Part shown: positions 22,917-52,694 of the stretch, in pieces
Layout: each line of letters opens with the position of its first letter
How positions within the stretch are numbered: position 1 is the first letter of the stretch
DNA from: Cinnamomum chago
Lineage: Eukaryota; Streptophyta; Magnoliopsida; Laurales; Lauraceae
Assembly: GCA_038049695.1 (NCBI GenBank)
Contig: CP142452.1
Span: 35,886,501-35,950,500, forward strand
Direction of reading: 5' to 3'
Length of the DNA: 64,000 nucleotides
Translations under genes and position numbers: made by a program
The notes under the pieces: model-generated
The model's input: the letters and a program-made list of their open reading frames with translations, nothing else
What the model was told of the DNA's origin: nothing
Database searches by the model: none

Positions 22917-23448
22917 GGGAAATTCTATATGCACCCACATCTATTGTTGAATACACCCACTTGCTGAGCTCACCACACTCATTCTATTTTTTGTCAAGGT
23001 TTTGGCAAGCCCACCCACCATAATACCCAAATCACCCTTACCACACCTAAAGACACAAATCACTCGTTCAAACCATCTCGTTACCCCGCCCAAAACGCAG
23101 TGATAATAGAGCAGTCATCTTCCTCCTCTTCTCCGCTTCTCCATTATGATTCTCGTGTGCCTCTCGTCACCATTATCATTCAGAATCTTGTAGGTGTCAG
23201 GTGAGCTCTTCTTCTTCTTCTTCTTCCTCCCTTCAAATTTATCCGTTTCATATATTTATCAGAAATCTAGGTTGTAATGTATGTATATAGAGTGTATGGA
23301 TGGCTTAATTTGTTAGAAATTTAGGTTGTAATGTTTGCAACAGATAGGGAAGTTAACAGGCCTAATTGAATGAGATGGATGGGAGGGAGGAAGCATAAAC
23401 CCTGTCTGAAGTTGAAAACCTAGAAAAAACTCGACGGAACTTCGCGAT

Positions 23449-23640
23449 CTGCTCGGCAATCCAGAACCGCGCAAGGTTTACTTTGCACGACGGTAGGATT
23501 CAGTCTAGGTTATATTTGGGCTGCCATTTTTCACCATGCATATAAGATTTGCACGGTTCCATCAAACCGTGAAAATAGAAAATGCGTTGTTTCATTGCGC
23601 TGTACAGAAACAATTTGCACCGTCCTTTTGAATCGAGCAG
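23449..23640. repeat. Palindrome array, MULE-1, PMD 5'-UTR intron
   Basis: A decayed array bounded by ctgctcgg (23,449) and cgagcag (about 23,634-23,640). It contains tgcacg, tgcacggttcc...aaaccgtg and tgcaccgtc words. It sits between a likely splice donor (gtgtcag/gtgagctc, about 23,200) and the acceptor just before the PMD start codon, the same place as in MULE-2. Confidence 0.65.
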
Positions 23641-23703
23641 GGAGAATTGTTGGACCTCCTTTTGTTCCTCTTAATGATTTTCATTGCTAATGATTTTGAA
23701 GGA

Positions 23704-25860: not shown

Positions 25861-25959
25861 TTAGTTATGAAATGTGGCTGCGGATGGGTGTATATTTTGA
25901 GGATTTATAGGAACTGGTTGATATGTGCAGTCTTTTTTTGTTGAATGTTAGTGTACTTG

Positions 25960-31900: not shown

Positions 31901-32214
31901 CCTCTCCTCTTTAACTCAAAATGAAACAATCAGAAACTGCAGAAGGCAAATAAGGGTTCTTAAATTGTGTTTGGGATAAAATTCGATCTCTAATATTTGG
32001 GAAATCTCCCTGAGTATCAGAACGGAAACTTCCTCTCAAGGAGATGTCGTTCTAACAATACTATCCTCCGAAGGAGATGTCGTTCTAACAACCCAACAAT
32101 AAAGAGATTGCTATTGGGTTGTTAATAGGTCAGGATTAACCAATGTAGTATAACCCAACCCACATACCATATGGGTTGGATGAATCTGGGCTTGATCTGG
32201 CCCAGGTTAATACA
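25960..32214 (-). repeat. 3' LTR of the Tekay element, interrupted
   Basis: Matches 37,039-39,889 along its length except for the inserted solo LTR at 26,459-29,905. Net length is about 2.8 kb. Confidence 0.9.
26459..29905. mobile_element. Solo LTR inserted in the Tekay 3' LTR (fossil)
   Basis: The insert starts tgtcacgcccc and ends ggggtctcaca, so it has TG...CA termini. It is flanked by catct (26,454-26,458) and catca (29,906-29,910), a 5-bp target duplication with one difference. The intact sister LTR near 37,530 shows the empty site. About 3.45 kb with no gag or pol, so it is a solo LTR of a family with other fragments at 5,931, 10,850 and 63,192. Inside are short 'gcatcgggaacc'-type repeats (27,625-27,730) and a GC-rich palindrome cluster (28,345-28,535). 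Confidence 0.85.
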
Positions 32215-32228
32215 TACTCCCCCCCTTA
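32215..32228 (-). other. Polypurine tract of the Tekay element
   Basis: The minus strand reads ctaaggggggagta directly before the 3' LTR start, the usual plus-strand primer site of LTR elements. Confidence 0.75.
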
Positions 32229-34860
32229 GGAAATTTAGTCCTCCAAATCCGATACATACCTATAGGAAAATGGTGGGGGTACTTCTTCCTGACTTCGTTT
32301 GCTGCCTCCCAGGTAGACTCTAGCTGATTGTGATGCTCCCACGGAACTTTAACCAGTTTTATTGTCCTGTGCCGCAAAGTTCTCTCTTTGGCTTCTAGGA
32401 TTTTCACCGGCCGCTCCTCATATGACAAATCTGGCTGCACTTGGATCGATTTATAGATTATTACATGAGAAGGGTCGGGCTGATATATTTTTAGCATGGA
32501 AACGTGGAACAAATTATTCACTCCAGCTAGTTGAGCCAATAGTCCAAGGGCATAAGCGTTACCATTGCTGACACGCCCGATGATTTCAAATGGGCCAATA
32601 TACCATGGACTTAATTTCCCTTTCTTACCAAACCGCATAACTCCCTTAGTCGGAGAAACTTTAAGAAATACATAATCACCCACACTAAATTCCAGTTCCC
32701 TCCGGCGATTGTCCACATAACTTTTCTGCCTACTTTGAGCTGCTCTTAATATGTCCCTGATCTTCCGGATAATGGCGGTGGAAGTCTGAACCCAATCGAG
32801 GCCAAGCAGTCTCCCATCACCAACCTCTTCCCAGCAAATTGGAGATCAGCAATTTCGGCCATAAAGTGCTTCGAATGGTGCCATTTTAATACTGGAATGG
32901 TAGCTGTTATTATATGCAAACTCAACTAGTGGCAACTGTTCATCCCAATTGTCCTTAAAGTCTAAAGTGCATGTTCTCAAAATATCTTCAAGGGTCTAAT
33001 TCGTTCTTTCTGTTTGCCCATCGGTTTGCGGATGATACGCCGTACTGAAACTCAACCTTGTACCCAGAACAGCTTGCAGCTTCTTCCAAATATTTGATAC
33101 AAACCTCGTATCCCTATCCGATACAACAGAAGCAGGTACACCATGCAATCTCACAATCTCTTTCACATACCTTTGTGCTAAGTACTCCATAGATTTCTAT
33201 TTCTAATGGGGAGGAAGTGAGCTGATTTTGTTAACCGATCCACAATTACCCAAAATAATTTCATTGTTTCTAATGGTCTTTGGAAAACCTGACACAAAGT
33301 CCATTGAGATATGTTCCCATTTCCATTCAGGTATCGGTAATGGTTGAAGCAGCCCTCCAGGCTTCCTGTGATCGGCTTTCACTTGCTGACAAGTAAAGCA
33401 CCTACTCACGAATTCAGCAACGTCATTTTTCATGCCGACCCACCAAAATCTTATCTTCAAATTTTGGTACATTTTAGTACTCCCCGCGTGGATGGTGTAG
33501 CGCGTGCAATGCGCCTCCTTCATAATCTCATCTTTGATTTTTGGAATGTTGGGGACACAAAGCCTTTTCCTGTAGTATAATGTATCATTGGTGATAGTAA
33601 AATCTAGGTTGTTATCCATCCTGTTGAATATCTCCATTAATGCTGGATCATTTCTCTGCCGGTCTTTGATCCTTTGAATCAACTCGGGCTGGACTCTGAA
33701 GCTCCCCAACAACACCTTATGGTTGATTGACTAAAGATTTGCATTCAAGTCCTTGACCTCTTCCATTAACCTCTTCTCCGCTGATAACGAAGTCATCTGA
33801 GCAGATTTCCTGCTTAGAGCATCAGCCACTACATTTGCTTTACCTGGGTGGTAAAACATAGAGAAGTCATAATCCTTCAAGAATTCCATCCATCTCCTCT
33901 GTCATAGATTTAAATCTTTTTGCAAAAACATATATTTCAAGCTCACTTCAAATTCCTTGCCATACAAATAGTGCCGCCAGATCTTAAGTGCAAAGACTTC
34001 TACAGCCAATTCTAGGTCATGTGTGGCATAATTTTGTTCATGTGACTTCAACTTTCTAGAGGCATAAGCAATGACCCTGCTGTGCTGCATAAGCACGCAT
34101 CCTAAACCATGCAGTGATGCTTCACAGAATATCACATAACCTCCACAGCCAGAAGGGAGGGCTAAAACTGGAGATGTAGTTAGTTTATCTTCTAACATCT
34201 GAAAACTTGCCTCACATTTATCATCCCAAATGAACGGCATATTCTTCCGAGTGAGTTTGGTCAAAGGACCTGCTATAGAGGAAAAACCTTACACAAATCT
34301 TATATAGTAACCTGCCAACCCCAGGAAACTATGGATTTCAGATACAGTTGTCAGTTTCTTCCAATTGGAAATAGCCTCGATCTTGCTAGAATCCACAGAT
34401 AACCCTTTGCCTAAGATGATGTGGCCCTAAAAGCTCACTTGTTCTAGCCAAAAGTCACACTTATTCAGCTTAGCATAAAGCTGATTTTCTCTCAGCAGAT
34501 TAAGAGAAGTGCGCAAATGATCCCCATGTTCTTCTATTGACTTGGAATAGATAAGTATATCATCTATGAATACCACAACAAACTGGTCTAGGTAAGGTTT
34601 AAAAATCTGATTCATGAGCGCCATGAATACTGCTGGCGCATTTGTTAGCCCAAAAGGCATTACCAAGAACTCATAATGTCCATACCTAGTCCGAAAGGCT
34701 GTTTTTGGTATATCTTCTTGTCTTACCCTTAGTTGATGATATCCAGACCGGAGATCGATCTTTAAGAAATATTTTGCACCCTGTAGCTGATCAAAAAGTT
34801 CATCAATGCGTGGGAGCGGGTACTTATTCTTGATGGTCACCTGGTTCAACTAACAATAAT
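32229..34860 (-). pseudogene. Tekay pol: RT, RNase H, integrase, chromodomain (fossil)
   Basis: In minus-strand order: reverse transcriptase (about 34,850-34,430; [32 protein letters not shown] and the FIDDILIYS catalytic block), RNase H (about 34,264-33,900; [15 protein letters not shown]), integrase with H2C2 finger and core (about 33,715-33,000; [37 protein letters not shown]) and a C-terminal chromodomain region (about 32,716-32,210; KGKLSPWYIGPFEI, LESTWEAANEVRKKYPHHF). The C-terminal chromodomain and overall order identify the Tekay/Del group of chromoviruses, whose chromodomain is thought to guide integration to certain chromatin. The reading frame is broken in several places. Confidence 0.85.
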
Positions 34861-36890
34861 CAATACACATTCGTAAGGAGCCATCTTTCTTCTTAACGAA
34901 TAAGACTGGTGCTTCCCATGGTGAAACATTGGGCCTTATGAATCCTTTTTCCAATAATTCATGTAATTGTTCTTTGAGTTCTTTCAACTCGGCAGGTGCC
35001 ATACGATATGGACTTTAAAAATTGGTGCAGTCCTTGGTACCAATACTATAGCAAAGTTCACTTTCCAAACTGGTGGCAAACCAGGTAAGTCATCCTGAAA
35101 CACGTCAGGAAATTCTCTAACTATGGGAGTTTCTTCCAGTTTAGGCGTCTGCTTCTCTTCTGTAACGAAGGCTAGGTACCCATCACATCCACTCCTCAAT
35201 AATTTACAAGCCTTAATTGCTAAGATGACTGCCGTGTGTACTGACCTTCTCCTTCCTATTACACACACGTCGTCGAACCCTTCTAGATTAAAGCAGACTA
35301 GTTTGTTAAAACAATCTAGCATTGCTCTATACTTTGCTAGCCAATCCATTCCCAGTTTAATGTCAAAATCATTCATAGGTAACAATATCAGGTCAACTGG
35401 CATATTAGCTTCCCCTGTTGATAAGTGGGCATTCATAAAATATAGTGCAAGTGTTCATGTGTCCATCGGTAGGAGTTGATACTATAAATGTTTGATCTAG
35501 TGTAGAGGGTGGCTTATTCATTTTTGAAGCAAAAGTATGTGACACAAAAGAATGTGTAGAGCCAGAATCAAATAAAGTATAAGTGTTATTATTGGAAATT
35601 AGAATCATACCCTCCACAACATTATTGGCAGCCTGAGCTTCCTGTTGAGTAATAGCAAAGACCCTAGCATCGGGTTGCTGTTTCCTTTGATGCCCGCCAT
35701 GATTAGGTCGACCACGATTGAGGTTCTGCCCTCGAGGCTGGTTAGGCGGCCCCCTTGTCTGATTTTGCTGGTGCTGAGCATTGTACTGATTCATTGTTGA
35801 CGGATTCTATTGATTTGTCGGACGGGGATTGTCTTGGTACCTTTGTTGTTGATTCTGCTGTGGTGGTTATTCTCATTGCTGACGCCTATCCTTATCTTGT
35901 TTCTATGGGCAGTCTTTGATGAGGTGGCCAATCTGACCGCATGCAAAACACGCGCCTGTAGACCAATGGCATTCTTCTGTGCTATGGTTCCTACTACACC
36001 GCTGGCATTCTATCTTTTTATCCAGTTTCTGCTTCTTCAGTTACCCTGGTGGTCCCTCTTGATTCCTGTTACCCTAGCCAAGACTATCCCGTTCATTTGA
36101 GCGTTTGTTTCCTCCGATACAAAGGCTCTTTTTAAAGCAGCTGCAAAGGTCGCAGGTTCACCCAGTTTCACATCGTTCTTTATATCTGGTCGTAACCCCT
36201 GGATAAATTTGTTCCGTTTCATCTCATCAGTGGCTATTAATTCTTCTGCAAAGTGAGACAGCTCTGTAAATTTGTTGGAATACTTTGCTACGGTCATATC
36301 CCCTTGCGCCAAATTCTGGAATTCCCTCTTCTTTCTTTCTCTGATATGCTCCAGAATAAATTTCAGAATGAATTATTTCTTAAAGAATGCCTAAGTAATT
36401 TCATTTTCCTGACCTTCGAAGGTTTTCTTAGCGGCTTTCCACCACTCTTTCGCATCTCCTTCAAGTTTAAAGGCGCCAAAACTGCTTTCTGTCGGTCCGT
36501 GCACCCCATCACTTTAAATATTCCTTCCATGTGTTCCACCCATTTGTTAGCATCCCAAGGGTTGGTGGTTTCCTCAAAATACCTGGGTCGAAATTCATTG
36601 AACCATTTGTATAAGGTGTCTATTTCTCTGTCTCTACCTCCAATTACAGGTCCACTTCCCTCACCAAGAGTGCCTACTCGAAGATCATTGTTCCCACCTT
36701 GACATGCTGCCAAGGTCGCGATCTGCTCCTGTACCTGACTGTAAGCCATCATGAATGATGCGAACATCTGTCGAGGCAGTTCAGCTTGCCTCCCAACAAG
36801 GTTCAGTTTAATGCTTGATTGTTATTTAGGTTCGCATTCTCGTTCGGGTCATCATTGGTGTTATGGAAGTTCTCCTGGTTATTCATGTTC
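34861..36890 (-). pseudogene. Tekay gag and protease (fossil)
   Basis: Gag occupies about 36,890-35,900, with WVEHMEGIFKVMGC, KYSNKFTELSHFA and KFIQGLRPDIK typical of the plant gypsy capsid domain, followed by a nucleocapsid zinc-knuckle region. Protease follows (about 35,640-35,300) with the active-site block TLFDSGSTHSFVS and a later LGMDWLAKY. The stretch leads into reverse transcriptase. It is broken, like the rest of the interior. Confidence 0.8.
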
Positions 36891-37019
36891 CTTCCCCTAC
36901 AAAAATTCCACCACTTAGCACACAATCACAGACAATAAACTTCTATTATACCAATCTCCCCCTTATAACGTCCTCACAACGTATCCTAAGAGTTGCTAAG
37001 TCTTTTATATTGCCCAAGA

Positions 37020-37035
37020 CTATGCTCTGATACCA
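37020..37035 (-). other. Primer binding site, initiator Met tRNA
   Basis: Three bases inside the 5' LTR the minus strand reads TGGTATCAGAGCATAG, complementary to the 3' end of plant initiator methionine tRNA. This fixes the strand of the element. Confidence 0.9.
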
Positions 37036-37038
37036 CTT

Positions 37039-39889
37039 TGTAACACCCCGAATCCTGGAGCTCATCAGAACTTGGGACATTACTATAAGGAAATCAAGAT
37101 CACTACATAAATCAAGTTATGACAAAGAATTGAGCAATGTTTCTAATTTATTTAAGGAATCAATTTGAAAAGAAGAGAAAGTAATACCAAGTCTACTAAC
37201 AACAATTCTTAATCCAAAAAGAACAAGTTCAACATTATTGAAAGAAAGTAATCAGTCTCAAAAATCCTTTATATCATTTCAATACGATTGTAACGCTCTC
37301 TCATCAGACACGTAAATTGAAATCCAATGGCTGATCTCCAACGTTGCCAAGCTCCCCCAAATGACCTGCACCTGAAGTGGGGTAAACCACTTATCAGAAA
37401 ACTGGTGAGCAATATTCTAAATACACGAATCACTTAATAAAATAATCCAATAACAGAAATAATAAGAAGAACCCATGAATTGATAACATATGTCCTATAG
37501 AATTTCTTTATCATTTAATGAGATTTCATATTCATCTCTTAGTTTTAGTAAGTTCAATATTCACTATTATGGAACCTTATAATTTCATTGAACTCTATCA
37601 TGAGAGTTCCAGTGTTCTCAGTCACTTCCAAAGGAAGTCCTTTTCTATAAGTTATTCCAAACTCTCCCTTAAGAGATTAGTTCAATAATCACTGATTCAA
37701 TCACTGTCCACCTTATCGCTCCGTACCCACAAGGGGTTCATTGATTAATCAATATTCAGAGTATCTGTCTATACTGATATTCCAAATACGGTGTCACTGT
37801 CTTGAACCATGTTTATAATAAAATGTCCTAATTACATTAGGAAGTTAACATAATTCTTTTTATGTTTATTATGCATGTAGAAGAACTATTATAGTCATAT
37901 TAATTATTTTGATGTAGGGCTAGTTCCACATAATCGGGTTTAGATATATATGTATGCCCCACTCCAAATTCAGAATTTGGTACCCGCCTATGTGGCACTA
38001 CCCTTATACTTTAGTACTAAGTCTTCATTACAATTCCAATCATTCTTAAAAGTTTCAGAAGTAAAAGAATGATCATGGGACTTAATTATTTGTTTCAAAA
38101 TCATGTACCATGGTTTAGGTTCCATAAACATATATCTATATGAGGTAACTCTAAGTCATACAATTAATCAGGGCCTATACTAGAATTTTCAGAACCATGA
38201 ACAGAATCTTAAATGGTTACCATTAGTTTATAATTTCTGTGATAGTAAAGGGTTGGAATGAAAATTTCTGCACATGATAAACATAAAAGAAATCTTTGAA
38301 AAGGTCAAGGAATAGCCTGGGTCCATGTTGAAAACATTCAACACAACAACTTAACAATGGGAATGACGATACAGTACTTTGCACAGTATCGTCATTCTCA
38401 GAAAAATGGTCTCACGCCCCCAACACTTTGAGGAAAGAAACGATGGGTCCCTAGTGGCCAGATCCACGTGGGTCCAGACTATTTTGGTCGCCCAACAGGG
38501 ACCAAGAAGATGGCTGGTCCTGATCATCGATCAGGTGGGCCACTGGGTCCCACAAGTCTAATCGACTTTGTGATATGAAGCCATTGCCATCTGTAATTTC
38601 TTCTTCTTCCCTGTTTATTCATCTTTCTACAAATTGTTTCAAGAGATGGAGTCCACACCAATATGGATTTTCCCATTCTATCATATCACATCATATAAGA
38701 GAAATTTCAGCAATTCGCAACAGTAAACAGTATTATTCAAACAGTCATTAACAAGTCCACACATCCAGGCAAAGGGTGTTCAGATGGTGGGGCCCTCCAT
38801 GGTCCAACTCACCTGGGACCTGGTCCATCTTGGTCGCCCATCAGGGACCAAGCAAGTGACTGGTCCTGATCCTTGATCAGGTGGACCAGTGGGTCCCACA
38901 ACCCAATCCACTAAAAACCCAAAAATTCCCAAAAATGCCGATGCAGGTGTTTTTCGATTTCAGATGAAGGCCAGATGGGGCCCAGTTCTAAATGGGTCCA
39001 CCTCCATTGTGGTCGCCCAATGGTCTGCTTCCAGATCTCTGGGATAGATCCATGATCAAGTGGGCCACATGGCCCTACTATCCAAGTCGACAGATCCTGT
39101 CTCTGTCGATTTGGTTTAGGAAAAACCATCTTGCTGCCTTGGAACTTCATCAGATTCTTTCCTCTTTGAATGAGATATTATCAAGACTCCATTATCACAT
39201 CTAACCAAAAAAATTAATCATTTTCTAATACTACTTGGATATGAGGATTACAGATTCTGGACAACAACCCCCCCCCCCCCCCCCCCCATCATTTCCCCGA
39301 TCCTCATATAGAGAATGAAATTTTCAAGATTTGTCAGTAATCAGATTTCCATTCCCTTATGCCTTTTTGGGTTATAATCATGATTAACAAAAACACACAA
39401 TAAACCCATATTTCTCTTTGTACTTGAAAATATTACGCACCTCCTCGTATAGCAAATTGTGGCACAGTTGATATGAGGTCTTGAGTCTTGCATCCACTAG
39501 ATCCTCTGGCTTTTTCCTCCCTGAGATCCCTCTTTGCTGCTTCCCAAGAAAGTCCCTCTGCACTCCTTCCTCTCCTCTCCTCTTTAAATCAAAATGAAAC
39601 GATTGGAAACAATGCAGAAGGCAAATAAGGGTTCTTAAATTGTGTTTGGGATAAAACTCGATCTATAATATTTGGGAAATCTCCCTAGGTATCAGAACGG
39701 AAACCTCCTTCCAAAGAGACGTCGTTCTAACAATATTATCTTCTCAAGGAGATGTTGTTCTAACAACCCAACAATAAAGAGATTGCTATTGGGTTGTTAA
39801 CAGGCCATGATTAACCAATGCAGTCTAACCCTACCCACATACCATATAGGTCGGACGAATCTGGGCCTGATCTGGCCCAGGTTATTACA
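37039..39889 (-). repeat. 5' LTR of the Tekay element
   Basis: 2,851 bp, tgtaacacccc...ggttattaca on the plus strand. Long stretches are identical to the left LTR (for example 37,830-38,270 against 30,205-30,645). It contains a perfect 12-bp hairpin at 38,361-38,397 and a poly-C run near 39,268. Confidence 0.9.
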
Positions 39890-39965
39890 ACTTGTATGAT
39901 TTTGATCAAAATGGAATGAAATTGCTATATTCATTATTTTTGTATGTTATAATATATGATTGCAC

Positions 39966-40120
39966 GACCAACATGTTCTGATGGTATAGCAAACTACACG
40001 GCACTGTAATGCTGTGCAAATAAATAATGCATGGCATAATATATCCGTGCAAAGACAAAATGCACGGTACTTTCTCACCATGGAGTTTTTCTTTTGCACG
40101 GCATTGTTAATCCGAGCAGG
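39966..40120. repeat. Palindrome array, MULE-1, intergenic copy 1
   Basis: Units of TGCACGG...(C/T)CGTGCA type begin with tgcacgacc and end with tccgagcagg. The units are looser than in MULE-2. The array sits downstream of the PMD gene and is repeated at 40,341-40,500. Confidence 0.75.
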
Positions 40121-40168
40121 GGTAAAAAAAAATCACATAACATAATGACATATATTTTGCATCCATTC

Positions 40169-40545
40169 CGTGGTTGGGTGTATATTTTGAGGATTTATAG
40201 GAACTGGTTGATATGTGCAGTATGTTTTTTATGAATGTTGGATGGGTCATTTTTTTATGAATGTTGGTGTACTTGTATGATTTTGATCAAAATGAAATGA
40301 AATTGCTATTTTCATTATTTTGTAAGATATAATATATGACTGCACGGCCAACATGCTCTGATGGTCCAACAAACTACACAACACTGTAATGCTGTGCAAA
40401 TAAACACTGCATGGCGTAATATATCCGTGCAAAGGCAAATTGCACGGTACTTTTTCTCCATACAGTTTGTCTTTTGCACGGCATTGTTAATTCGAGCAAG
40501 GATCTAAAAAAAATCACATAACATAATAACATACATTTTGCATCC
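40169..40545. repeat. Second copy of a tandem duplication in MULE-1
   Basis: The segment starting 'ggttgggtgtatattttgagg' repeats 25,885-25,954 plus 39,895-40,168 almost word for word, including its own palindrome array (40,341-40,500). The Tekay element lies inside the first copy, so the duplication came first. Confidence 0.8.
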
Positions 40546-41728
40546 ATTTCATCAGCCATTCGTTAAAAAAACATGTATTGTGTTTGTTTACATCAAATTA
40601 GATATAAATATTCAATCGCTATCAAGATTAACCGACTCCTGTGTTGCGACATTATCTCTAATTAATTCTCTAAATTGCTCGATGATCTTAGCATATGGGA
40701 GTTTCCATCCGTCTACATTAGTATGATGGTGTCTAAACCAATTTGTAGCAATGAGAGGCATGAGAGCCTTCATTGTCATGAAGACCTGAACAAAATGGTT
40801 TCCATTGACAAAACCAATCGCGATAACTGTGTGAGACCTTGATGGAATCGGGGATGATCTCAAAGGCAGGAAAGTAAGGCACTCTGCAATGAAAGGTGGA
40901 CCAATACAATGTTATAATATGAAGATAACAAGTGACTTATGTCCGACATTATCATCCACTGATCAAATGAAGGATTACTTTCATAGTACGACAATGCGTA
41001 ATACATCTCCCTAACCCTTTTGACTCATTTAACAGTATATCCAAAGCATTCCTTGATAGAAATCCTCTCAACTCACGAAACAGTGCCGGTTTGAACTCAT
41101 ATTGCACGGTGTTCAAACTCTTTTCAAAAGAAGCATTTATTTCCGTAAAGAGCAACTCAAGCAAGGCATGGATAACCTGCTAGGACAAATCAAAGCTACA
41201 GTTCGATGTACCTAAGTGTCTCTTTAATTTTGCATGTGCACTCTTAGCCCTGTTCATAGTGACGTTTTCAAAGTGCATATGTCGATCTGTTCAAGCAGCC
41301 ACAAATTGCTCCTTATGCTTAATTAACCATGACTTCTTCACATAATCAATAGCACGTGGATACTCGTAGTAATTCCGTTTCAATGCACTTAGAAGTTGCA
41401 TGTAGTCATTTTCAGTGGGAGAGACTACCAACATGTTCCAACAAGAAATAAATGCATCCCATCTGTCGTTGGTCTAAAAAAACTTCTTACGATTTGCCAA
41501 GATGTTCTTAGAAATATGTCACATGCAGAATAAGTTTGCTGCATTTGGAAAAACAACATTGATTGCATTCATCAGCGCTAACTCTCTGTCTGTGACAATC
41601 ACACGGGGCAGAATGCATCAATCCATTAATTCCTTAAACCTCTCCAAATCCCTGCTGTAATTATGCACCCTCTCTGATTCAAGGTACACAAAAGCAACGG
41701 AGAACGTCAATTGAGTAGATGTGACACC

Positions 41729-43938
41729 TGTAAGTCCATGGGGATCCGAACCCTAGAGGGGGGGTGAATAGGGTGAGCTTCAATTATGACCAATTTTAAA
41801 CAATTTTAACTTCTTTAAAACAAACTAGTCACATGTGATGATTAATCATACAAGATGCGGAAGCTAACAAAAGAATCACCACAAAGCAATCACCATCACA
41901 CAAGTATTTATAGTGGTTCGGCCTCAATGCCTACATCCACTACCGGCTTGTGATCCAACACCCCACCGGATTTCCACTATTTATGCTTTTCAATAGGCTA
42001 AGCAATAACCTTTACAATATGCTTTTCAAGGCTAAGCAATAACCTTTACATTGATGTTTTTCAAGGCTTAACATCAACCTATACACTATGCTTTTAAAGG
42101 CTAAGCAATAACCTCTTCAACCACAAGGTTGGTTATCTCACTAATTAGTGTCTAACATACACTTGATGGAGATTCTATTAAGCTCATTACAATGCCTCTT
42201 AATTAGGCGGATATGGAAGTGAAATACAAATACACACTCACACTATGAATGCAAAGTTGAAAACAAATGAAGTGTGTGTGTGTGGTCCTCAATCATTTTG
42301 AAAATGAAAGTTCATAAATGTATGCCTAAGGCTTTTGAAAGTTTAAGCTCATAAAACATTTATGATTGAGGATGTGATGCAATCACATGTTAAAAGTAAC
42401 AACTTGTTAATGATATCAAAGTTACACAAGTTGTATGAAATGGATTAGCTCTAAACATGTGATGCATAGGGATGTCAATCAAATCATCAAGGAAGCTCAA
42501 AACACAAAAATAGATTTGATTGAAAAGAGGGGACAAATCATATGTAATTATAAGGACAACTTGAAAATGATTTACCAATCAAAGTAAGGCAAGTTGTGAA
42601 ACATTAAAACAATAATACACATATGATTTGTAATGATGTTGAATCCAAAACATAAGATACATTTGAAGGAGATTTTCTTATGATGGAAAAACAACACCCA
42701 AAGATTCAACAAAGTATATGAATCATGTTACATCTTTCATTAACATGATCTACTTAGATTTACCAATAAAGTACTACTTTGATGAATCAATGGTGATGTA
42801 TCCAAAACAATAGATCTATTCAAAATATAGAATATGCTAAGGATACAACATATCATATATTAACATGTTACAAAGATTTACCAATGATAGAACAAAACAT
42901 GAAAACATATGATTTGTAAAGAGGTTGAGTCCAAAACATAAGATAGTTTTGAAAGTGATTTTCTTATGATGGAAAACAACAACCAAAGATTCAACCAAGT
43001 ATATGGATCATGTTACATATGATTTCAAAGGTTTTTACATTAACATGATCTACTTAGATTTACCAAAGTTAAGTACTACTTGAATTGAATCATATGGTGT
43101 TGTATCCAAAACAATAAATCAACTCAAAACATAACACATGTTAAGGACACAACACAAACATAGTTTATCATGCTAGAAATGATTTACCAAAAATAAAACA
43201 AAGCATGAAAACATATGATTAAGAAAGGAAGAGCCTACTTGGTGGTTTAACTTCATTAATCCAAGCTTTAGCTTTCCTAAACTTCCCCTTCATCCCTTGG
43301 TTCTTTTCCCTTTTGATATGCCTCAATACCTCTCAAGGAGGGGTTAAAAATTCCCAACTTTTGGAAAGGGAAAGAACTCATTTTTATAGCCAAAACAGCC
43401 CAACGGCTAGTTTACCCGGTTGACCGGCCATGACAGGCCGGTTGACCGGCCAAGCACAACGGTCATAAAAAGAGCCGTTGTGCGAGCCCGGTTGACCTGC
43501 CCTGTGTGGCCGGTTAACCGGGCCTCTTGGCCGGTTGACCGGCCACACATGGCCGGTTGACCGGGCCTGCCCAGAATTTCCCATTTTTTTGGGTTTCTTG
43601 AAGATTTTCTTTGGGGATCTTTTGGGCCATTAAAATCAAGCATTTTCACATGTTTTAAATCATTCTAAGATGTATAAAAACATGAAACAAAAAGCCTAAA
43701 AGGATTCAAAGACTTTTAAAACAAAGGCTTGCTTGATTTCTTGAAAACTCTTTCTTAAAACAAATGCATCCAAGATTGAAAACAAAACATGCATAAATCA
43801 AAACTTTTACAACTCTTAAAAACCATGCATGTGTAAACCAAGATTTCAAGTTTATCTAAAACAATGCAAGTGTGTGTGAATCAAATGATGCTAGAATGAA
43901 ATGCATCCATCAAATTGCAACCTACAAAATTCCTAACA
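41729..43938. mobile_element. Solo LTR inserted in the MULE-1 transposase gene (fossil)
   Basis: A 2,210-bp insert with TG...CA termini (tgtaagtccatgg...attcctaaca) is flanked by the 5-bp duplication acacc (41,724-41,728 and 43,939-43,943). MULE-2 shows the empty site near 50,908. No coding sequence. The start 'gaaccctagagggggggtgaataggg' is a word seen at many plant LTR ends, and a Copia origin is likely but unproven. The interior has a roughly 290-bp tandem duplication (about 42,610-42,830 and 42,900-43,140) and a GC-rich palindrome cluster (43,407-43,575). Confidence 0.85.
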
Positions 43939-44744
43939 ACACCAACAATCTCAAGCAAGGGAAGTCGATATCTCTGAGTCTTGTACGTGGAATCCATTAT
44001 CAAAACTTCTGAAAATGCACGTAATAACTCAACAGATGATAGATGTGTCCAGAATAGGTCCATGATAACATATGTTGCGTCATTAATAGTGTGATACTCA
44101 ATGTAGTTGTTCTGCTCCAAATGCATCATGAGTTGTTGCATCTATGATCGACCGGCCATCTTTGTCACCCTAAACTTGTCACGAGCATTGTAGATACTCT
44201 TTATCGTAGTGATGTTGTGCACATCCCTTTCCTGCAATGTTCGACGGATGTTCATCGGCTTCACCAAACTCTTAGACATATCAATCAAAATGTTGATTTC
44301 TTCTTTAGAAAGCCTCCCAGCAAACTAGTGCCCCTCGAGATGTTGTGCGTTTGGATGATTGCGCACCCCCCAAACCACTGTTACCATCCAATCATCGTCA
44401 ATTGTCAACTTTCGGCCCTTCAAAGCAAAATGGCAACTACACTTCTTCGTTCCCGTTACCTTATTAGGAATTTTGTTTTTAAAGACCTTTGACGGACCAT
44501 CGTAACTACCACTCCTCTCACAAGAAAAAACTATTCTCGACTTCCTACCATTTTCACCAGCATCTGAAGTTTTGATTACAATTACCAAGCCGTGTTTCTT
44601 TTCAACATCCCTTGTCCATTGGATTAGGCCCTTTCGGCTTCTGAATATCGTGTCAATGGTGAAGACATTAGTATAATCCAAAAAGCACTCATTGGCACCG
44701 GTTGAATCAATCTCCTGAAAATATGATCAGAATTTCTTAGTTTA

Positions 44745-44940
44745 TCAATGCACGAGCCTTTACAACCGTGCAGTATTATACAACACGGTTTATATACGCC
44801 GTTCTTAATATATATGCTTGGTTTCGTGTGGCCGCAGTAATACTTTGCCCGGCATTATAGCGCTGTGCAATATAACTATGCACGGTCTTCACTAGTCGAG
44901 AATATCTTTAGTGGCACGGTTTTGGAATCCTGAGTAGGAC
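44745..44940. repeat. Palindrome array, MULE-1, transposase intron 1
   Basis: Decayed TGCACGG/CCGTGCA units (atgcacgag, aaccgtgcag, gcacggtt) lie between the exon-2 acceptor near 44,713 and exon 1 at 45,021, the same intron position as in MULE-2. Confidence 0.65.
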
Positions 44941-45387
44941 GCGAGAATTTTTTTTTTTTAAGGAAACGAAGTCAAAACATACATATACGTCCTCTTGGTA
45001 GATCGTTAACTGCTTATCCATATTGAGAATGCCTACTTTCAATGCACAATATGGTACAGGGGGATGAGTACTTCCAAGGTCGTTAAAGAAATGGAGGAGA
45101 CTTGATGATACTTCCAAGAGTTGAGGAAGATGATGAGGAAGGATATGAACATCAATGAGGATGAAGGATTGAAGATGAGCAATGATGAAAGAATGGATCA
45201 AAGGGAGAATGAAGAAGAAGAAGAGGATATGAGAGTAGAGAAAACGTAAAGCTCCATTGTAGAAGAACCAAAGGAAGATGAGAGGAGGTTGATGGTGAAG
45301 GGCGATTTTGTCCTTTCACTTGAGGGCATTTTGGTAATTTAACTGTGGGTGTGTTCAGGAAAACCCATGGTGCCCTGAGAATCAACT

Positions 45388-45454
45388 CTACTTAAAACTT
45401 GAAGATCTAGTTATTACTTTATGGCAAATTTGTCTACTAAATTCTGATGTAATT
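45388..45454. other. 67-bp host spacer between two MULEs
   Basis: It holds the right duplication of MULE-1 (ctacttaaa, 45,388-45,396) and the left duplication of MULE-2 (gatgtaatt, 45,446-45,454). It is the only host DNA between the two transposons. Confidence 0.8.
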
Positions 45455-45754
45455 GGGAAATTCTATATGCACCCACTAAGACTCCTGAATACACCCACTT
45501 GCTGAACTCACCACAACCATTCTAATTTTGGCTTGATTTTACTCAGCTCACCCACCATAATCCCCAAACTGTCCATCCAAGCTCACCATTCGTTCCATTG
45601 CCTGAATACATTCCCTCGTTCAGAGTTTTCAAATTTCTGGCCATTTCGGAGTCGTCGACGTTCTCCACTTCAGATCTCTCACACCCTCGTGGACGGTTGG
45701 TGAGCTGCGTTCCTTCTTCTTCGTCTTCTTCATCAGCAGGGACACTCAAACAGG

Positions 45755-46184
45755 TGAGAGCCCTTCTTCTTCTTCTTCTTCATAGGTTTATAATTTTCAC
45801 AAATTTGTTTAGGTTGTAATTTATGCATTAGAGAGTATAGTTGTGAGACCTCTGCAACAAATAGGGAAGAAGTCCGTAATGAAAACATGAATAGTTTCGA
45901 ACTCCAATGTTTTCCATTTTTGAAAACATGAATAGTTGTTCGCGATCTGCTCGGCAGTCCAGAGACGTGCAGGGATTTTATGCACGGTAAGTGTAAACCG
46001 TGCAGAATATATATGCACGGATTCATATTACAGTGCAAACAGATTTTGCACGGTTACATTGAGCCGTGCAAACAGAATTTGCACGGTACCATTTCGCCGT
46101 GCAGAACAATGTTGCACTGTCTATTTAAACCGAGCAGTACAACAAAATATGATAATCTCTTTTATTGGTTTTCATTTTTAACAG
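45755..46184 (+). other. Probable 5'-UTR intron of the MULE-2 PMD gene
   Basis: Donor ctcaaacag/gtgagagcc near 45,754 and acceptor catttttaacag/attggaag near 46,184, just before the ATG at 46,195. A (ttc)n run follows the donor. MULE-1 has the same arrangement. Inferred from splice consensus only. Confidence 0.55.
45946..46140. repeat. Palindrome array A, MULE-2, PMD 5'-UTR intron
   Basis: About six units of a 24-bp palindrome (TGCACGG, about 10 variable bases, CCGTGCA) separated by about 10-bp AT-rich spacers, giving a ~34-bp period. The array starts with ctgctcgg (45,947) and ends with ccgagcag (46,138), which are inverted copies of each other and one-base variants of the core. The loops differ in sequence while the 7-bp arms are kept. 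Confidence 0.85.
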
Positions 46185-46194
46185 ATTGGAAGAA

Positions 46195-48513
46195 ATGCCG
46201 AGAAGACCAGCTCGCCGTATTGGTGCCAGCTCACAGATGACAAGGGGACGGGCCAGTTCTTCTAGCGAGCCATCGAGAGTTCGGACGAAGATTGGTGTCT
46301 CAAGACCGCGTTCCCGAGGTGTGCATGCGAGTTCTTCGACAGCCGGCCGTCAACGGCCAACGGCGTCTGAACGAAGACGAAAAGTGCAACAGGATCCACT
46401 CCCGGAGCAGGTTGAGGAGCATGTTGACAGTTCATCAGAGGATGATTCCTCAGAGGAGGAGGCACAGCCGTCCAGTCCCCGTGCATCGGCACCAGGAGAA
46501 GAGCATGGTGACAGTTCTTCAGAGGATGATTCCTCTGAGGAGGAGGCACAGCCGTCCAGTCTCCCTGCAGGGGCACCAGGGGAGGATGATTCCCATTTCG
46601 AGGAGGGACAGCCATCCAGTCCTCCTGCTGCGGCGGCAAGGGAGGGTCCTATCCCCGGCGGTCCGGCCGACCTATCTGTCCTTATGAGTTTTAGGACACA
46701 CGTAGCCTTGTCCATATGGGACGGGGAGGTACAATTGCCTTTTTTAATGTTTTAATTAATCGTTTTTCAAATAAGATGTGTTGAAGTCTATAATAACAGA
46801 TATTAATGAAGATTTATACTTGTAATGTGCAGGAACGTGAGGCACTCAAATGTATCAATCATTGGCGAGGGCTGAAGGATTGGTACATACCTTTGCCCGG
46901 GGATGGGGCCGATATCCATGTTCCTCGGTTTCATGCTATTATAGAGGAGTCTGGATTGGCAGGTTTGAAGCGTCTTTCTTACCGATATATCTCCAGCCCT
47001 CTGGTATCCAGCTTTGTGAGGTGGCAGCCCGAGACAAATACCTTCCACATGCCATTTGGTGAGATGACGATCACCCTAGATGATGTGGGTACTCTCCTCG
47101 GCATCCCAGTAACGGGACTGCCTGTCCAGGCATCGACTAGTATGGGATTTACTGATCAAGTAGATTTACTTGAGCGTGGACTGGGCGTGGATAGGGCATC
47201 TGCGTCAGCTGAGTTGAGAGTAGCGCGTGGTGGGGTAGTGAGGATGGCCTGGATCAAACGGGTGTGCGGCGAGGTGAGTCCTGCGTCGTCTGTTGAGCAG
47301 GTAGAGTGTGCAGCTAGAGGCTATCTTCTGTATTTGTTAGGCTGCACACTCTTCGCCGATAAGCCAGCCACTTGAGTCCCCATGGCCTACCTACATTTAC
47401 TTATGGACTTGCCACGGGTCCGTCGCTATGCATGGGGGGCTGCCGCACTTGCATATCTTTATCACCAATTGGGGACCGCCACGAGGGCAGACGTGCGACA
47501 GATTGCTGGATATCTGACACTGCTCGCGGTAATACATATACATATACATGTTCCATCGTAATTGATCCTTTAAATTGTATAATTAATAATTGGTATCTTT
47601 TGCAGTCTTGGGTGTACGAGCATTTCCCATTTACCCGTCCTCCTGTCCAGTGGGGATATACCACTGGTATGCCTCAAGCGAGCCGCTGGAATGCTGGACA
47701 GGATTCTGGGATTGCGAGGGAGAACATAAAACTGTTGCGTGAGAGGCTGGATGACCTCCATCCGAGTCAGGTGAGCACCCATATGGGGTCCTTGGTATAA
47801 TGTTGCACTTTTTTTCAATGGACAAATTTTTATTATAATAATGAGTTCTTTCATTTACTTGCCACAGGTCCAGTGGGATCCGTATACTGGTGTCAGGGCT
47901 CATCATCCATTCCATCAGATATCTTTCTTCTGTGGTTGCTTGAGAGCGCTAGATGTTATTGAACCCTACCATCCACATAGGGTTCTCCGACAGTTTGGAT
48001 ATGTACAGACCATCCCACCCGCACCGCTCGCCCCCATTCGTGCGTCTCGGGGATCTACTGCTGGACAGTACAGGGTCTCTTACAGATTTCTAGACCAGTA
48101 CTGGGTTACTTGGGAGGATCATGTATTGTCGTTAGCGCACCGCGGCCATCGAGTGCAACATGCATGGGAGTGCTCACCCGATTACCTCGAGTGGTTTTTT
48201 AGGATTTCACACCCTCGAGTACAGAACCCCCAACGTCATTCCCACTATCACCCTAATGAGGGTATAGCTGACCCGACTCCAAGAGTGGTGAGTGTTTGTA
48301 CTTTATCGAAACAGTATGCATCCATTTGTTATACTTATCTTAGGTATTGACACAGTTAATTGTTTCTTACAGATCACTCGGGCGAGGGACCATCTCCGCG
48401 CTGCGATTGCACGAACGGAACAGCCTGCAGATTTCTATTACCGGGCACTCCAAACCACCCTCGAGATCCTGGATGGCTTGCCGGTGACGTACCGACGACG
48501 TACAGATACATGA
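46195..48513 (+). CDS. MULE-2 plant mobile domain (PMD) protein gene, with one premature stop
   Basis: Five exons fit consensus splice sites: 46,195-46,728, 46,833-47,528, 47,606-47,770, 47,868-48,287 and 48,373-48,513. Exon 1 gives a basic, Ser-rich start (MPRRPARRIGASS), then two near-identical acidic repeats (DSSSEDDSSEEEAQPSS) and a partial third. Exons 2-5 encode the aminotransferase-like PMD (PF10536): KCINHWRGLKDWY, YRYISSPLVSSFVRWQPET, MPFGEMTITLDDVGTLLGIPV, WVYEHFPFTRPP, HPFHQISFFCGCLR and YRFLDQYWVTWEDHVL. Host PMD proteins MAIN and MAIL1 are nuclear and act in silencing and genome stability; transposon copies have no proven role. In exon 2 a TGA at 47,373-47,375 replaces the AGA found in MULE-1, ending the product after about 358 residues inside the domain. 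The gene is therefore recently lost or makes a truncated protein. Confidence 0.8.
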
Positions 48514-48784
48514 TGGCATGAGGGTTTTTTGTTTTTTTTTGTTTTTGTCTTATTATTTTGTTAAGTCTGTATGGATGGGAAATTAATGTATGGATGTATG
48601 GATGGGTTTATCCATTTTTGCGATGTAAGAAGTTTTTTGGATATGTATGGATGGATCACCTGATTTTTTGATGTATCTATTTTTTTAATGGATGTTTTGA
48701 TGATACACTTTTTTATGTTTGAACTTGTATTTTTATATGGATATGTGTGTTATGTGTTTCCGTCCGAATAATTGGTAAAACACA

Positions 48785-48942
48785 CTGCACGGCCACCATG
48801 TTCCGAGCAAATACTGTATGCACGACACTTTATTACTGTGCAAATAGTTTATGCACGGCAACTTTATCCCGTGCATTATCCATTTGCACGGAACATATTT
48901 GCCGTGCAGAATACATTTGCACAGCCAAGTTTAACCGAGCAG
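48785..48942. repeat. Palindrome array B, MULE-2, between the convergent genes
   Basis: Units (tgcacggcc, tgcacgacac...gtgca, tgcacggcaac...ccgtgca, tgcacggaac...ccgtgca) end with ccgagcag (about 48,936-48,943). The array lies between the PMD stop (48,513) and the transposase stop (49,089). Short frames across it are not genes. Confidence 0.85.
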
Positions 48943-49088
48943 TTGTTAATAAAGTAATACCTTCTTTGGAATATTATGAATGAATTAATATACACAATAT
49001 AAACACATAAAGACCTCATCGAATTCATTGGCCATCCAATACAAAATATTTAATATGTTTCTTTACATCAAATGGAGAGTACACATAA

Positions 49089-52015
49089 TCAATCGCTGTC
49101 AAGATTGACCGACTCCTGCGTTGCGACGCTGTTTCCAATCAATTCTCTGAATTGCTCGATGCTCTTTACATATGGGAGCTGACATCCGTCTGCTTCAGGA
49201 TGGTGGTGTCTATGCCAATTTGTAGCAATGGGAGGCATGGGTGATTCGGGTTTCATGAAGACCTGAACAAAATGGTTTCCATTGACGAAACCAACCGCGA
49301 GCACTTTGTGAGAACTTGATGGAATCGGGGATGATCTCAAAGGCAGGAAAGTAAGGCACTGCTGCAGTGAAAGAAGGACCAATACAACGTTATAATATGA
49401 AGATATTAAGTGACCCATGTCCGGCATTGTCATCCATCGATCAAATGAAGGATTGCTTTCAAAGTAACACAATGCGTAATACAACTCCCCAACCCTGTCT
49501 TCTCCTCCATAGACCAGTGCATAATAATTTTGATGCCTCTGCAATTCATTGCTCAAATCCATTCTAACCTGCATCCATTTATCCTCGCCCAGGCCTAGGA
49601 GACCAGCTATCGCTCTGAATCCACAGTTACCATCAGCTGCAACATCCTTAATAGTGTGGATATAGGGGCCCAAAGACTGATGAAGCAAATGCAGAAACGT
49701 ACATGACCGAGTGCGACGGACAGTCATTTTCTCCTTATTCTTCGTTGCAACTGTATTGCTTAATCTAGCTGGAACGCTATCTTTTATCGACAGTGCGTAT
49801 TCAAAATTAGATGGTTCCCGACGCGTAGATCTATCCAACTTCTTTCTTTTTGATGATGACCGACCGCGGGTATTCAATTTTATGTCTGGTTCGATAAGAG
49901 AAGTAGATGAAGGACAACCGAGTTCTATAAGTTTTCTTAAAATTTGTATTTTACCCTTCTGATCACTACTTTGAAATCTCTTAGTGATCAACTCGAACTC
50001 TGAAGTTGTGGTCAACTCAAGGGCTTCGTTCACCATAGTGGCTTCTAAATTGAGCTTCCGCCAATAGTGGTGGACACTACTCAGTGGTATATGAGAACCT
50101 TCCCTTATGTACTCGGCAATTTCATGTGCACATGGCAAACCATGAGTCCGTCGGATTACGCACCCACATGACGTAGTATCTGGACCAATATGACTAGCCC
50201 TTAACGACTCATTTAACACTATATCAAAAGCATTCCTTGATAGAAATCCTCTCAATTCACGAAACAGTGCCGGTTTGAACTTATGTTGCACGGTGTTCAA
50301 ACTCTTTTCAAAAGAAGCCTTTATTTCTGTAAAAAGCAACTCTAGCAAGGCATGTATAACCTGCCAAGACAAATCAAAGCTACAGCTCGATGTGCCTAGG
50401 TGTCTCTTTAATTTTGCATGTGCACTCTCAGCTCTGTTAGTAGTGACGTTCCCAAAGTGCATATGCCGATCCGTCCATGCAGCCACAAATTGCTCCTTAT
50501 GCTTATTCAACCATGAGGTCTTCACATAATCAACAGCATGTGGATACCCGCAATAATTCCGTTTCAAAGCACTTAGCATTTGCGTGTAGTCGCTTTCAGT
50601 TGGAGAGACTACCAACGTGTTCCAACAAGAGATAAATGCAACCCATCTGTCGTTGGTCTCAAAACACTTCTTACAATTTGCCAAGATGTTCCTAGAAATA
50701 TGCCACCTGCATAATAAGTTTGCTGCATTCGGAAAAATAACATTTATTGCATTCATCAGCGCTAACTCTTTGTCTGTGACAATCACACGGGTCGTGATGC
50801 ATCCATCCATTAATTCCTTAAGCCTCTCCAAAGCCCATCTATAATTGGCCTCCCTCTCTGATTCAAGGTACACAAAAGCAACGGAGAACGTCAATTGAGT
50901 AGATGTGACACCAACAATCTCAAGCAAGGGAAGTCGATATCTATTAGTCTTGTATGTGGAATCCATTATCAAAACTTCTGGAAATGCACATAATAACTGA
51001 ATAGATGATGGATGTGCCCAGAATAGGTTCGTGATAACATCTCTATCATCGTTGCTAGTGTGATACTCAATGTAGTTGTTCTCTTCCAAATGCCTCATGA
51101 GTTGCTGTATTTGTGATCGACCGGCCATCTCTATCACCCTAAACTTCTGGCGAGCATTGTAGATACTCTTAATTGTAGTGGTGTTGTGCACATCCCTTTC
51201 CTTCAATGTTCGAAGGATGTTCCTCGGTTTCACTAAACTCTTAGACATATCAAACAAAATGTTGATTTCTTCCACAGAAAGCCTCCCGGCAAACGAGTGC
51301 CCCTCTAGATGCTGTGCGTTTGGATGATTGTGCACCCCACAAACCACTGTTAACATCCAATCGTCGTCAGTTGCCAACTTTCGACCCTTCAAACTAAAAG
51401 GGCAACTACACTTCTTCGTTCCCGTTGCCTTCTTAGGATTTCTCTTCTCGAATACCTTCGATGGACTCCTGTAACTACCACTTCTCTCACAAGAAAGAAC
51501 GACTCTCGGCTTCCGTCCATCTCCACCAGCATCCGAAGTCTTGATTACAATTACCAAGCCATGTTTCTTTCCAACATCCCTTGTCCATTGGATTAGGCCC
51601 TCTCGACTTCTGAATATCATGTCAGTGGTGAAGACATTTGTAAAATCCGAAAGGCACTCACTGGCACCGGTTGATTCAACCTCCTGCAAATATATCGCAA
51701 ATTTATAGATTAGCACTGCACACTCATTTATTAATTTTGCACGGTTTATATATGCGGTGCAAAATTATTCTGCACGGTTTATATAGGCAGTGCAAAATTA
51801 TTCTGCACGGTTTATATGGGCGGTGCAAAATTATATTGCACGGTATATATAGGCCGTGCAGAATAATTTTGCACTGTCTATATAGGCCGTGTAATATAAT
51901 TTTGCACGTCTTATAGAATGCCGTGCAGGACGCGAGAAAACAAAAACAAAAAACGAACGAAATGAAGTCAAAATGTATATACCTCATTTTCGTAGATCGT
52001 CAACTGCTTGTCCAT
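49089..52015 (-). CDS. MULE-2 transposase fused to an OTU cysteine-protease domain
   Basis: Two exons: exon 1 at 52,015-51,983 (MDKQLTIYENE) and exon 2 at 51,683-49,089, joined by a GT-AG intron; the product is 875 residues. Exon 1 is conserved in MULE-1, which supports the start, though in-frame sequence further upstream is also similar. Domains: FAR1/WRKY-GCM1-type zinc finger (about 30-135; C76, C103, H129, H131), MULE DDE transposase (about 245-435; D252 in LIMDSTYK, D315 in VTDKE, E430 in NRAESAH, and a CRWH motif at 336-339), SWIM finger (C517, C519, C529, H531), a basic linker (about 617-670; RGRSSSKRKKLDR) and an OTU domain (about 685-870; ADGNCGFRA with Cys698, and NGNHFVQVF with His815). 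All expected catalytic residues are present and there is no internal stop, so it may still be active. The protein should act in the nucleus on the element's ends. Why an OTU deubiquitinase-like domain is attached is unknown. Confidence 0.9.
51684..51982 (-). other. Intron 1 of the MULE-2 transposase gene
   Basis: Minus-strand donor gaaaatgag/gtatat and acceptor tttgcag/gaggttg. The intron is about 300 bp and consists mostly of palindrome array C. Confidence 0.75.
51716..51930. repeat. Palindrome array C, MULE-2, transposase intron 1
   Basis: The most regular array: about six units such as TGCACGG-tttatataggc-AGTGCA, 24 bp each, with AT-rich spacers of about 9 bp (aaattattc). Arms are conserved, and here the loops are similar too (tttatatagg). 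A simple reading is recent unit-by-unit expansion. Confidence 0.9.
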
Positions 52016-52382
52016 ATTGCAAATGCCTACTTTAAATATACAATGTGGTGTAGGGATAATTGTACTTCCAACTTCGTTCAATAAATGGAGGAGACTTGAT
52101 GATATATTAAAAAGAGTTAGAAGAAATGATGATGAAGGAGATGAAAATCAATGAGGAAGAAGGAGTGCAGAGGTGCAGTGAGAAGGGAATGGATAAAGGG
52201 ATAGGAGGAGAAGAAGAAGAAGAAGAGATGGAGACCCACTGCCGCTGGTGAACCAAAGGAGGAAGACGGATGTTGATGGTAAGGGCAATTTCATCCTTTC
52301 ACCCGAAGGCATTTTAGTAATTAAAAAATATTTAAGTTGTGGGTGTATTCATCACTTCCAGTGGGTGCGAATAGAATTTTCC

Positions 52383-52694
52383 GATGTAATTTCATCCAAA
52401 TTTCCATCTAATCAGAAGAAAAGGAAAAAAATCTGAATTTTCATCTTCAGTTGCTGTGTTCCCCAACGCAAGCGGGCCTACATTCTCCGCCTTGATTTCA
52501 AAGCAGTGGAGTGTCGACTGCACGAGAAGCAGGGGAGTCTCTAAATCAGGAACGAAGGCGATAGATCTCATTCTTGTCCGTCTCCGATCCGTCTCCTTTA
52601 CAATCGCCGATCAATAAAACAACAACAACAAAAGCGAGGAAGAAGAAGAAAAAGGAGGAGCAGCAAAAAGGAAAAGAAAGAAAGAGAGAGAAAG
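52383..52694 (+). promoter_or_regulatory. Upstream region and 5' UTR of the PMT gene
   Basis: 312 bp between the MULE-2 right end and the PMT start codon. The last 80 bases are purine-rich (gaggaagaagaagaaaaagg, aaagaaagagagagaaag), as is common for plant 5' leaders. No TATA box was confidently identified, so the promoter may now lie partly beyond or within MULE-2. Confidence 0.5.

Follow-up and report, generated by a model that had tools for sequence, protein, structure and literature searches.

Regular arrays of a 24-bp palindrome at three non-coding places in PMD-carrying Mutator-like elements of Cinnamomum chago

What role could one short palindrome have that is repeated in regular arrays at three separate non-coding places of a single transposon? 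The question is raised by MULE-2, a Mutator-like element (MULE) that encodes a PMD protein besides its transposase, found in a stretch of 64,000 nucleotides of the Cinnamomum chago genome (the whole of which is called the window below) together with the remains of an older relative, MULE-1. The repeated unit, TGCACGG-N10-CCGTGCA, is 24 bp long and consists of two inverted TGCACGG half-sites. Our analyses confirm the array as a genuine cis feature, conserved and associated with these MULEs. Comparison of its copies suggests that the arrays may be cis strips of palindromic sites for a trans-acting protein encoded by the element, a reading for and against which we consider the chances evenly balanced.

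Three arrays and their distribution in the host genome

The element, its arrays and the short sequences that lead into two of them are as follows.

45455..52382, no strand assigned: MULE-2, whole element; its terminal inverted repeats (TIRs) begin GGGAAATTCTAT and GGAAAATTCTAT
45946..46138, + strand: array 1, six 33-bp units, in the putative 5' untranslated region intron of the PMD gene (45754-46184)
48785..48942, + strand: array 2, five units, between the convergent PMD and transposase genes
51716..51930, - strand: array 3, five clear units (51738-51893) and decayed ones, in the putative transposase intron 1 (51684-51982)
45939..45954, + strand: lead-in TTCGCGATCTGCTCGG, on the promoter side of array 1
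51921..51936, - strand: lead-in CTCGCGTCCTGCACGG, on the promoter side of array 3, oriented to its gene as in array 1

All three arrays that the first-pass annotation had placed in MULE-2 are present, and array 3 occupies about two thirds of its intron, the splice sites being predicted from sequence. The repeat spacing, given there as about 34 bp, is corrected to a period of 33 bp, made up of the 24-bp unit and a 9-bp spacer; left-to-left steps measure 33 bp in 41 cases and 34 bp in a minority of 11. With up to three mismatches, the unit pattern has 33 matches in the window against 0.78 expected, a number reached by none of 100 shuffles. Half-sites with at most one mismatch number 51 in MULE-2, 35 in the arrays and 15 in approximate coding exons, for which coding length our own estimate of chance occurrence, at equal base frequencies, is about 12. 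The arrays are CpG-rich. Capping by variant units, which the annotation had reported for two arrays, is seen in two of the three: array 1 starts with CTGCTCGG (half-site TGCTCGG) and ends with CCGAGCAG (half-site CCGAGCA), array 2 also ends with CCGAGCAG, and the caps recur in MULE-1 and at the diverged loci L057 and L058. Lead-ins near TTCGCGTCCTGC (up to four mismatches) are found in MULE-1, MULE-2, L036, L037, L040, L043, L057-L061 and L001; they come before the first unit, on the promoter side, in both PMD and transposase arrays.

A search of the host genome (1.06 Gb), with reversed patterns as controls, returned 637 exact units against one in the control, counts which include inheritance within a young family and do not represent independent events. 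Loops of other lengths are rare (N8-9, 14 matches, control 0; N11-12, 27 matches, control 4), and the palindrome formed between adjacent units, CCGTGCA-N9-TGCACGG, occurs 397 times (control 1), its N10 form 32 times (control 0). With a transposase DNA query 985 candidate places came up; the 40 that were scored are all 98-100% identical. From this young family 30 loci were cut out, the window itself among them; an intron array with at least three units is present in all 30 and a mid array in 29, L024 lacking the latter in the stretch fetched.

Association with MULEs was surveyed on one contig (C1), among the matches listed, which comprise at least 100 exact sites (50 units and 50 palindromes between units), grouped into 37 clusters. 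For 16 of these clusters a strict TIR match is no more than 8 kb away, where random placement gives 0.13; this is a measure of proximity, and among the 16 we read L038 and L043 and, in part, the cluster at 21.88 Mb (L003-L005) and those with parts in L007, L023, L024 and L026. Of the other 21 listed, 16 were read, and each has transposase, PMD, TIR or non-coding MULE homology (L001, L002, L036, L037, L039-L042 and L057-L064), the assignment of L001 and L063 resting on non-coding homology to L040, which has TIRs and a target site duplication (TSD), and to L037, L039 and L041. The coincidence of motif clusters with MULEs, a check that the first-pass annotation had proposed, thus holds for 32 of the 37 listed clusters, 16 by a nearby TIR and 16 by homology, and no array outside a MULE was seen among these 32. 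The five clusters outside the tally lie at 24.04, 28.73, 57.93, 62.39 and 69.67 Mb, and at the first two the sites are spaced 2.8-2.9 kb apart, as in the young family.

This distribution bears on the possibility that the binder is a host transcription factor, with the arrays as enhancers in two 5' introns and the intergenic region. Arrays 1 and 3 do adjoin the two promoters, and a TTCGCGTCCTGC-like lead-in stands on the promoter side of both; but targets in other parts of the genome would then be expected, whereas exact sites lie in or near MULEs in the 32 clusters checked, a count that covers exact sites in clusters and not single or looser sites. We regard a host factor as improbable.

Persistence of the arms in older, diverged and non-coding elements

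MULE-1 supplies the nearest comparison.

22917..45387, no strand assigned: MULE-1, older, collinear with MULE-2; imperfect TSD CTACTTTAA/CTACTTAAA (8 of 9 bases alike)
23450..23639, + strand: decayed PMD array of MULE-1
39961..40498, + strand: mid array of MULE-1, duplicated with 380-bp spacing
44749..44936, - strand: decayed transposase-intron array of MULE-1

A PMD fragment (23-26 kb) and a transposase fragment (40-45 kb) make up this one old MULE, which is interrupted by inserted DNA at about 25.85-39.96 kb and 41.73-43.94 kb; the insertion point of MULE-2 lies about 60 bp past its right end. The decayed arrays that had been claimed for MULE-1 were found at all three homologous places. Between MULE-1 and MULE-2, with units in register, identity in the PMD array is 0.77 in arms and 0.55 in loops; in the mid array it is 0.84 and 0.56, and in the second copy of that array 0.84 and 0.54. 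At the two edges of the PMD array, the arm variant of the end units is preserved, as is much of their loop (first unit, arms 12/14 and loop 8/10; last unit, arms 12/14 and loop 7/10). We do not take this as evidence for a special role of the caps, since such conservation is compatible with edges that are spared the turnover of the array; the caps might nonetheless act as boundaries.

Twelve diverged loci hold arrays at comparable places, although L036 and L037, and likewise L039 and L062, may each be two ends of one element. Units adjoin transposase exon 2 in L036, L042, L059-L062 and L064, and the PMD start in L037, L039, L041, L057 and L058. By piece, the transposases of L036 and L042 are 69-82% identical in amino acids and the PMD proteins of L039 and L041 40-61%; L037 has homology to a PMD exon, its PMD start being judged by eye. 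In L041 the units alternate in 66-bp higher-order units, which points to a recent expansion in dimer steps, and L035, in the young family, has its intron-array units in two stretches about 0.2 kb apart.

We anchored 18 arrays on the left half-site alone (89 anchors) and measured conservation in the remainder of the unit. The right arm retains 0.73-1.49 bits per position (mean about 1.16), compared with 0.27 in loops and 0.16 in spacers, and all seven arm positions are conserved, the final GG included. Across 13 arrays, the distance from left to right half-site is 17 bp in 56 of 58 pairs closer than 45 bp, and from right to left half-site 16 bp in 39 of 48 pairs closer than 43 bp.

Each unit is able to pair with itself, and tandem repeats can give rise to small interfering RNA (PMC10398659), so that the units might be RNA or DNA hairpins serving as a small-RNA source or as a splicing or replication structure. 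Among 588 arm pairs in 84 units, however, 443 have both bases of the consensus, 140 are changed on one side, four are compensated and one is an uncompensated double change. Compensation thus accounts for 4 of 145 changed cells, and the paired fraction is 0.837 against 0.842 after shuffling; the unit filter slightly disfavours double changes (9.7 expected, five seen). The caps, moreover, alter one arm only. Since the arms do not covary, independent half-sites on double-stranded DNA fit better than a hairpin, as they would for a protein dimer; selection for a hairpin is not supported, and the intronic hairpins that the first-pass annotation had offered as one role now appear very improbable.

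Short elements without genes also carry the unit. A diverged non-coding MULE family (L038 and L044-L053; 355 candidate places, 40 scored) combines 33-bp units with TIRs and is, by TIR likeness, a possible dependent of an older PMD-MULE clade. The sample comprises ten loci, L044 being the place of L038 again; a unit-like match is present in all ten at up to four mismatches and in nine at up to two, the best in L049 having three. A script paired the TIRs of L038, L045-L048, L051 and L052 at 425-607 bp apart and those of L040 at 911 bp, and found no pair in L002, L049, L050 and L053. Perfect TSDs flank L038, L040, L046 and L048; one base is off in L047 and L052, two in L051 and four in L045. Transposase and PMD queries had no match in 12 loci (L002, L038, L040 and L045-L053). 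Inside the paired TIRs there are one to three units, at up to three mismatches, in the seven short MULEs and five in L040. Because units persist without the element's genes, a factor acting in trans is suggested.

Candidate binders of the arrays

MULE-2 encodes two recognised genes between its TIRs.

45455..45501, + strand: left TIR, with two CACCCAC boxes 22 bp apart (TGCACCCA / ACACCCA)
46195..48513, + strand: PMD gene (PF10536); N-terminus basic (by eye), followed by acidic tandem repeats
49089..52014, - strand: transposase gene, with an AFT/FAR1-type N-terminal finger, a MULE domain, a SWIM-like motif (by eye) and a weakly matched OTU-like C-terminus
52336..52382, - strand: right TIR, laid out as the left one (CGCACCCA / ACACCCA)

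The element has the properties of a Mutator-like element: a MULE transposase domain (PF10551, E 5.8e-25), TIRs with 47-bp arms that are 79% complementary, and a perfect 9-bp TSD, GATGTAATT, at 45446-45454 and 52383-52391. The TIR pattern has 100 forward and 83 reverse matches in the genome, and none in the control. The CACTA/Spm superfamily is marked by CACTA ends and a 3-bp TSD, and membership of it is ruled out by the ends GGGAAATTC and the 9-bp TSD. PMD is encoded inside the element, which is accordingly a PMD-MULE; PF10536 matches three PMD exon pieces at E 8.8e-23, 2.1e-5 (bits under the Pfam cut-off) and 3.1e-10, and no relative of the first piece was found in the PDB at E up to 1. Tandem DNA repeats of 84 and 60 bp (46417-46645) encode acidic serine-rich peptide repeats in the PMD coding sequence. 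The N-terminus of the transposase matches AFT (PF08731, E 1e-6, above cut-off) and FAR1 (PF03101, E 4.6e-5, below cut-off), and its C-terminus (49092-49730, - strand) has an OTU-like DGNCGFRA motif, for which the best Pfam match is otubain at E 0.21, below cut-off.

What is observed is the anatomy of the arrays, their link to MULEs, arms conserved from family to family and no covariation between the arms; protein binding by the arrays, the identity of the binder and an anti-silencing role are what we infer from these patterns. An element-encoded DNA-binding protein would act in trans on copies of the element, non-coding ones included. The two inverted half-sites of each unit, 17 bp apart, would suit a dimer, and a step of 33 bp, about three helical turns, would place bound dimers on roughly one face of the DNA. 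With arrays next to each promoter and a third in mid-element, the bound protein could block silencing or switch the genes on, in a manner likened to that of VANC proteins in VANDAL MULEs, while units would be gained and lost by tandem duplication and their arms held by selection. The half-sites of the arrays are palindromic and have GG, not CC, at their end, properties that suggest a binder other than the transposase; as the CACCC boxes of the TIRs suit the AFT-like finger of the transposase, and PMD is the only other gene recognised, the PMD protein is the more likely candidate of the two. In its most specific form the proposal is that a PMD dimer docks on the phased palindromes of 24 bp at each promoter and in mid-element, with a predicted anti-silencing action separate from that of VANC that would protect autonomous and tiny non-autonomous copies alike; taken as a whole, this is possible but tentative.

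The alternative binder is the transposase, whose AFT/FAR1-type finger would contact the arrays, whether for auto-regulation, for anti-silencing (as reported for MURA) or for titration. The AFT finger is presumably of the WRKY-GCM1 type, like that of FAR1. FAR1 has been described as a WRKY-GCM1-type finger (PMC6000157), and yeast Aft1 has been associated with TGCACCC and Aft2 with ACACCC (PMC6250833), motifs near the TGCACCCA and ACACCCA of the TIRs; array half-sites share TGCAC, and non-coding MULEs retain TIR and units together. The finger plausibly binds the TIR boxes. These, however, read CACCC and are direct repeats 22 bp apart, with no palindrome, whereas seven arm positions are held in the arrays with GG at their end. 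Binding of the arrays by the transposase is unlikely, if still the strongest of the competing explanations.

Several observations weigh against binding by PMD or against selection on the arms. PMD is not known as a DNA binder, and accounts of MAIN and MAIL1 leave DNA binding open in their accessible text (PMC7156037, PMC9899485). The Arabidopsis 'DOWN' motif, CATGCAGTTT, is not enriched in the window (nine matches at up to one mismatch, 6.4 expected), with none in MULE-2 and three in the MULE-1 mid arrays; we rejected it as a PMD site for want of enrichment there. Three other PMD loci, whose transposon status was not tested, have no such array in 1.4 kb each, so PMD alone does not imply arrays. 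The mid array was seen only in the MULE-2 family and MULE-1, more diverged families not having been examined for it, and the TGCAC common to TIR and array keeps the transposase a candidate. Within the young family, nucleotide diversity in the mid array (28 copies; L024 and L035 omitted) is 0.051 in arms, 0.092 in loops, 0.114 in spacers and 0.053 in flanks, the arms being about as variable as the flanks. In the intron array (29 copies; L035 omitted) the values are 0.072, 0.067, 0.093 and 0.025, so that arms change faster than flanks and not more slowly than loops; without CpG sites, arms stand at 0.052, loops at 0.067 and flanks at 0.022. At CpG sites themselves diversity is 0.031 (mid) and 0.139 (intron) in arms, and 0.083 and 0.066 in flanks.

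The arm-versus-loop comparison across copies, as it had been proposed, therefore goes the expected way in the mid array and not in the intron array. Young copies mostly reflect recent change, but the mixed result counts against a simple selection story, and as proof of arm selection the comparison fails because arms are not slower than flanks. The case relies for this reason on comparisons between families, where selection on a binding site, as first suggested for the window, is supported by the excess of information in arms over loops; within the young family the outcome for that suggestion is mixed. Chance expansion of a neutral minisatellite in one MULE lineage would account for these young arms, for the varying unit number and for the duplications in L035, L041 and MULE-1. 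Arms, the 17-bp half-site spacing and gene-proximal sites nevertheless persist between families with different loops, and a neutral origin is the least probable explanation that we weighed.

Relation to known systems and significance

The first-pass annotation knew of no MULE feature of this kind, a view overtaken by published work on VANDAL elements: VANC21 binds tandem arrays of YAGTATTAY, which occupy introns and non-coding stretches between genes and at the ends of VANDAL21, and makes the element lose DNA methylation; VANC6 has another motif (PMC5735166). The likeness extends to short motifs in dense tandem arrays within introns and intergenic regions of a MULE with extra genes (the introns here being putative), to arrays that gain and lose units, to a motif concentrated in a transposon family and to an accessory protein with tandem peptide repeats, VANC proteins carrying tandem peptide motifs (PMC5735166). 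By analogy, the array system most likely works like VANC target arrays. MULE-2 itself is not a VANDAL, from which it differs in motif, protein and TIRs. Its site is a 24-bp palindrome and not YAGTATTAY or AGTTGTCC/AGTTGTAC; YAGTATTAY has three unclustered matches in the window against 1.8 expected, the VANC6 motif not having been searched. Its accessory gene is PMD (PF10536) and not DUF1985/DUF287: no DUF1985 was found in the accessory gene pieces, which matched PMD instead, a genome search for PF09331 gave no match with its controls silent as well, and a kinship of DUF1985 and PMD found no support. Its TIRs are clear where those of VANDALs are degenerate, and its motif is constant across diverged families, in contrast to VANDAL motifs, which differ between related families.

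Other systems resemble parts of this one. TnpA of Spm acts through repeated short sites, which are subterminal in Spm, unlike the internal arrays described here. Element-encoded proteins linked to loss of DNA methylation include Spm TnpA and MuDR MURA, named alongside the arms race of VANDALs with RNA-directed DNA methylation (PMC10398659); MURA affects TIRs of non-autonomous copies, whereas the present arrays are internal, at three fixed places. The SIRC cassettes of Arabidopsis are set apart by their description, whose accessible text makes no mention of fixed-place palindromes in an autonomous MULE (PMC10342631). Capture of PMD by MULEs has been reported: several grasses and Amborella have transposases to which PMD is fused (Ikeda et al. 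2017, PMC5418596); MULE-2 likewise has a captured PMD, but as a separate convergent gene and with binding-site-like arrays. We found no palindrome arrays in PMD-MULEs in the titles and abstract openings of the open-access literature, subscription papers and repeat libraries not being searched.

An anti-silencing role has been speculated for transposon-captured PMD proteins (PMC5418596), and the defined palindrome array of PMD-MULEs is a concrete probe with which binding and methylation can be tested. If the proposed reading is true, these elements would represent a second VANC-like system, built on another protein and another site; VANDALs would then not be alone in opposing silencing sequence-specifically by way of tandem arrays, and captured PMD proteins would gain both a DNA target and a function. 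The palindrome might also provide a new sequence-specific handle for epigenome editing.

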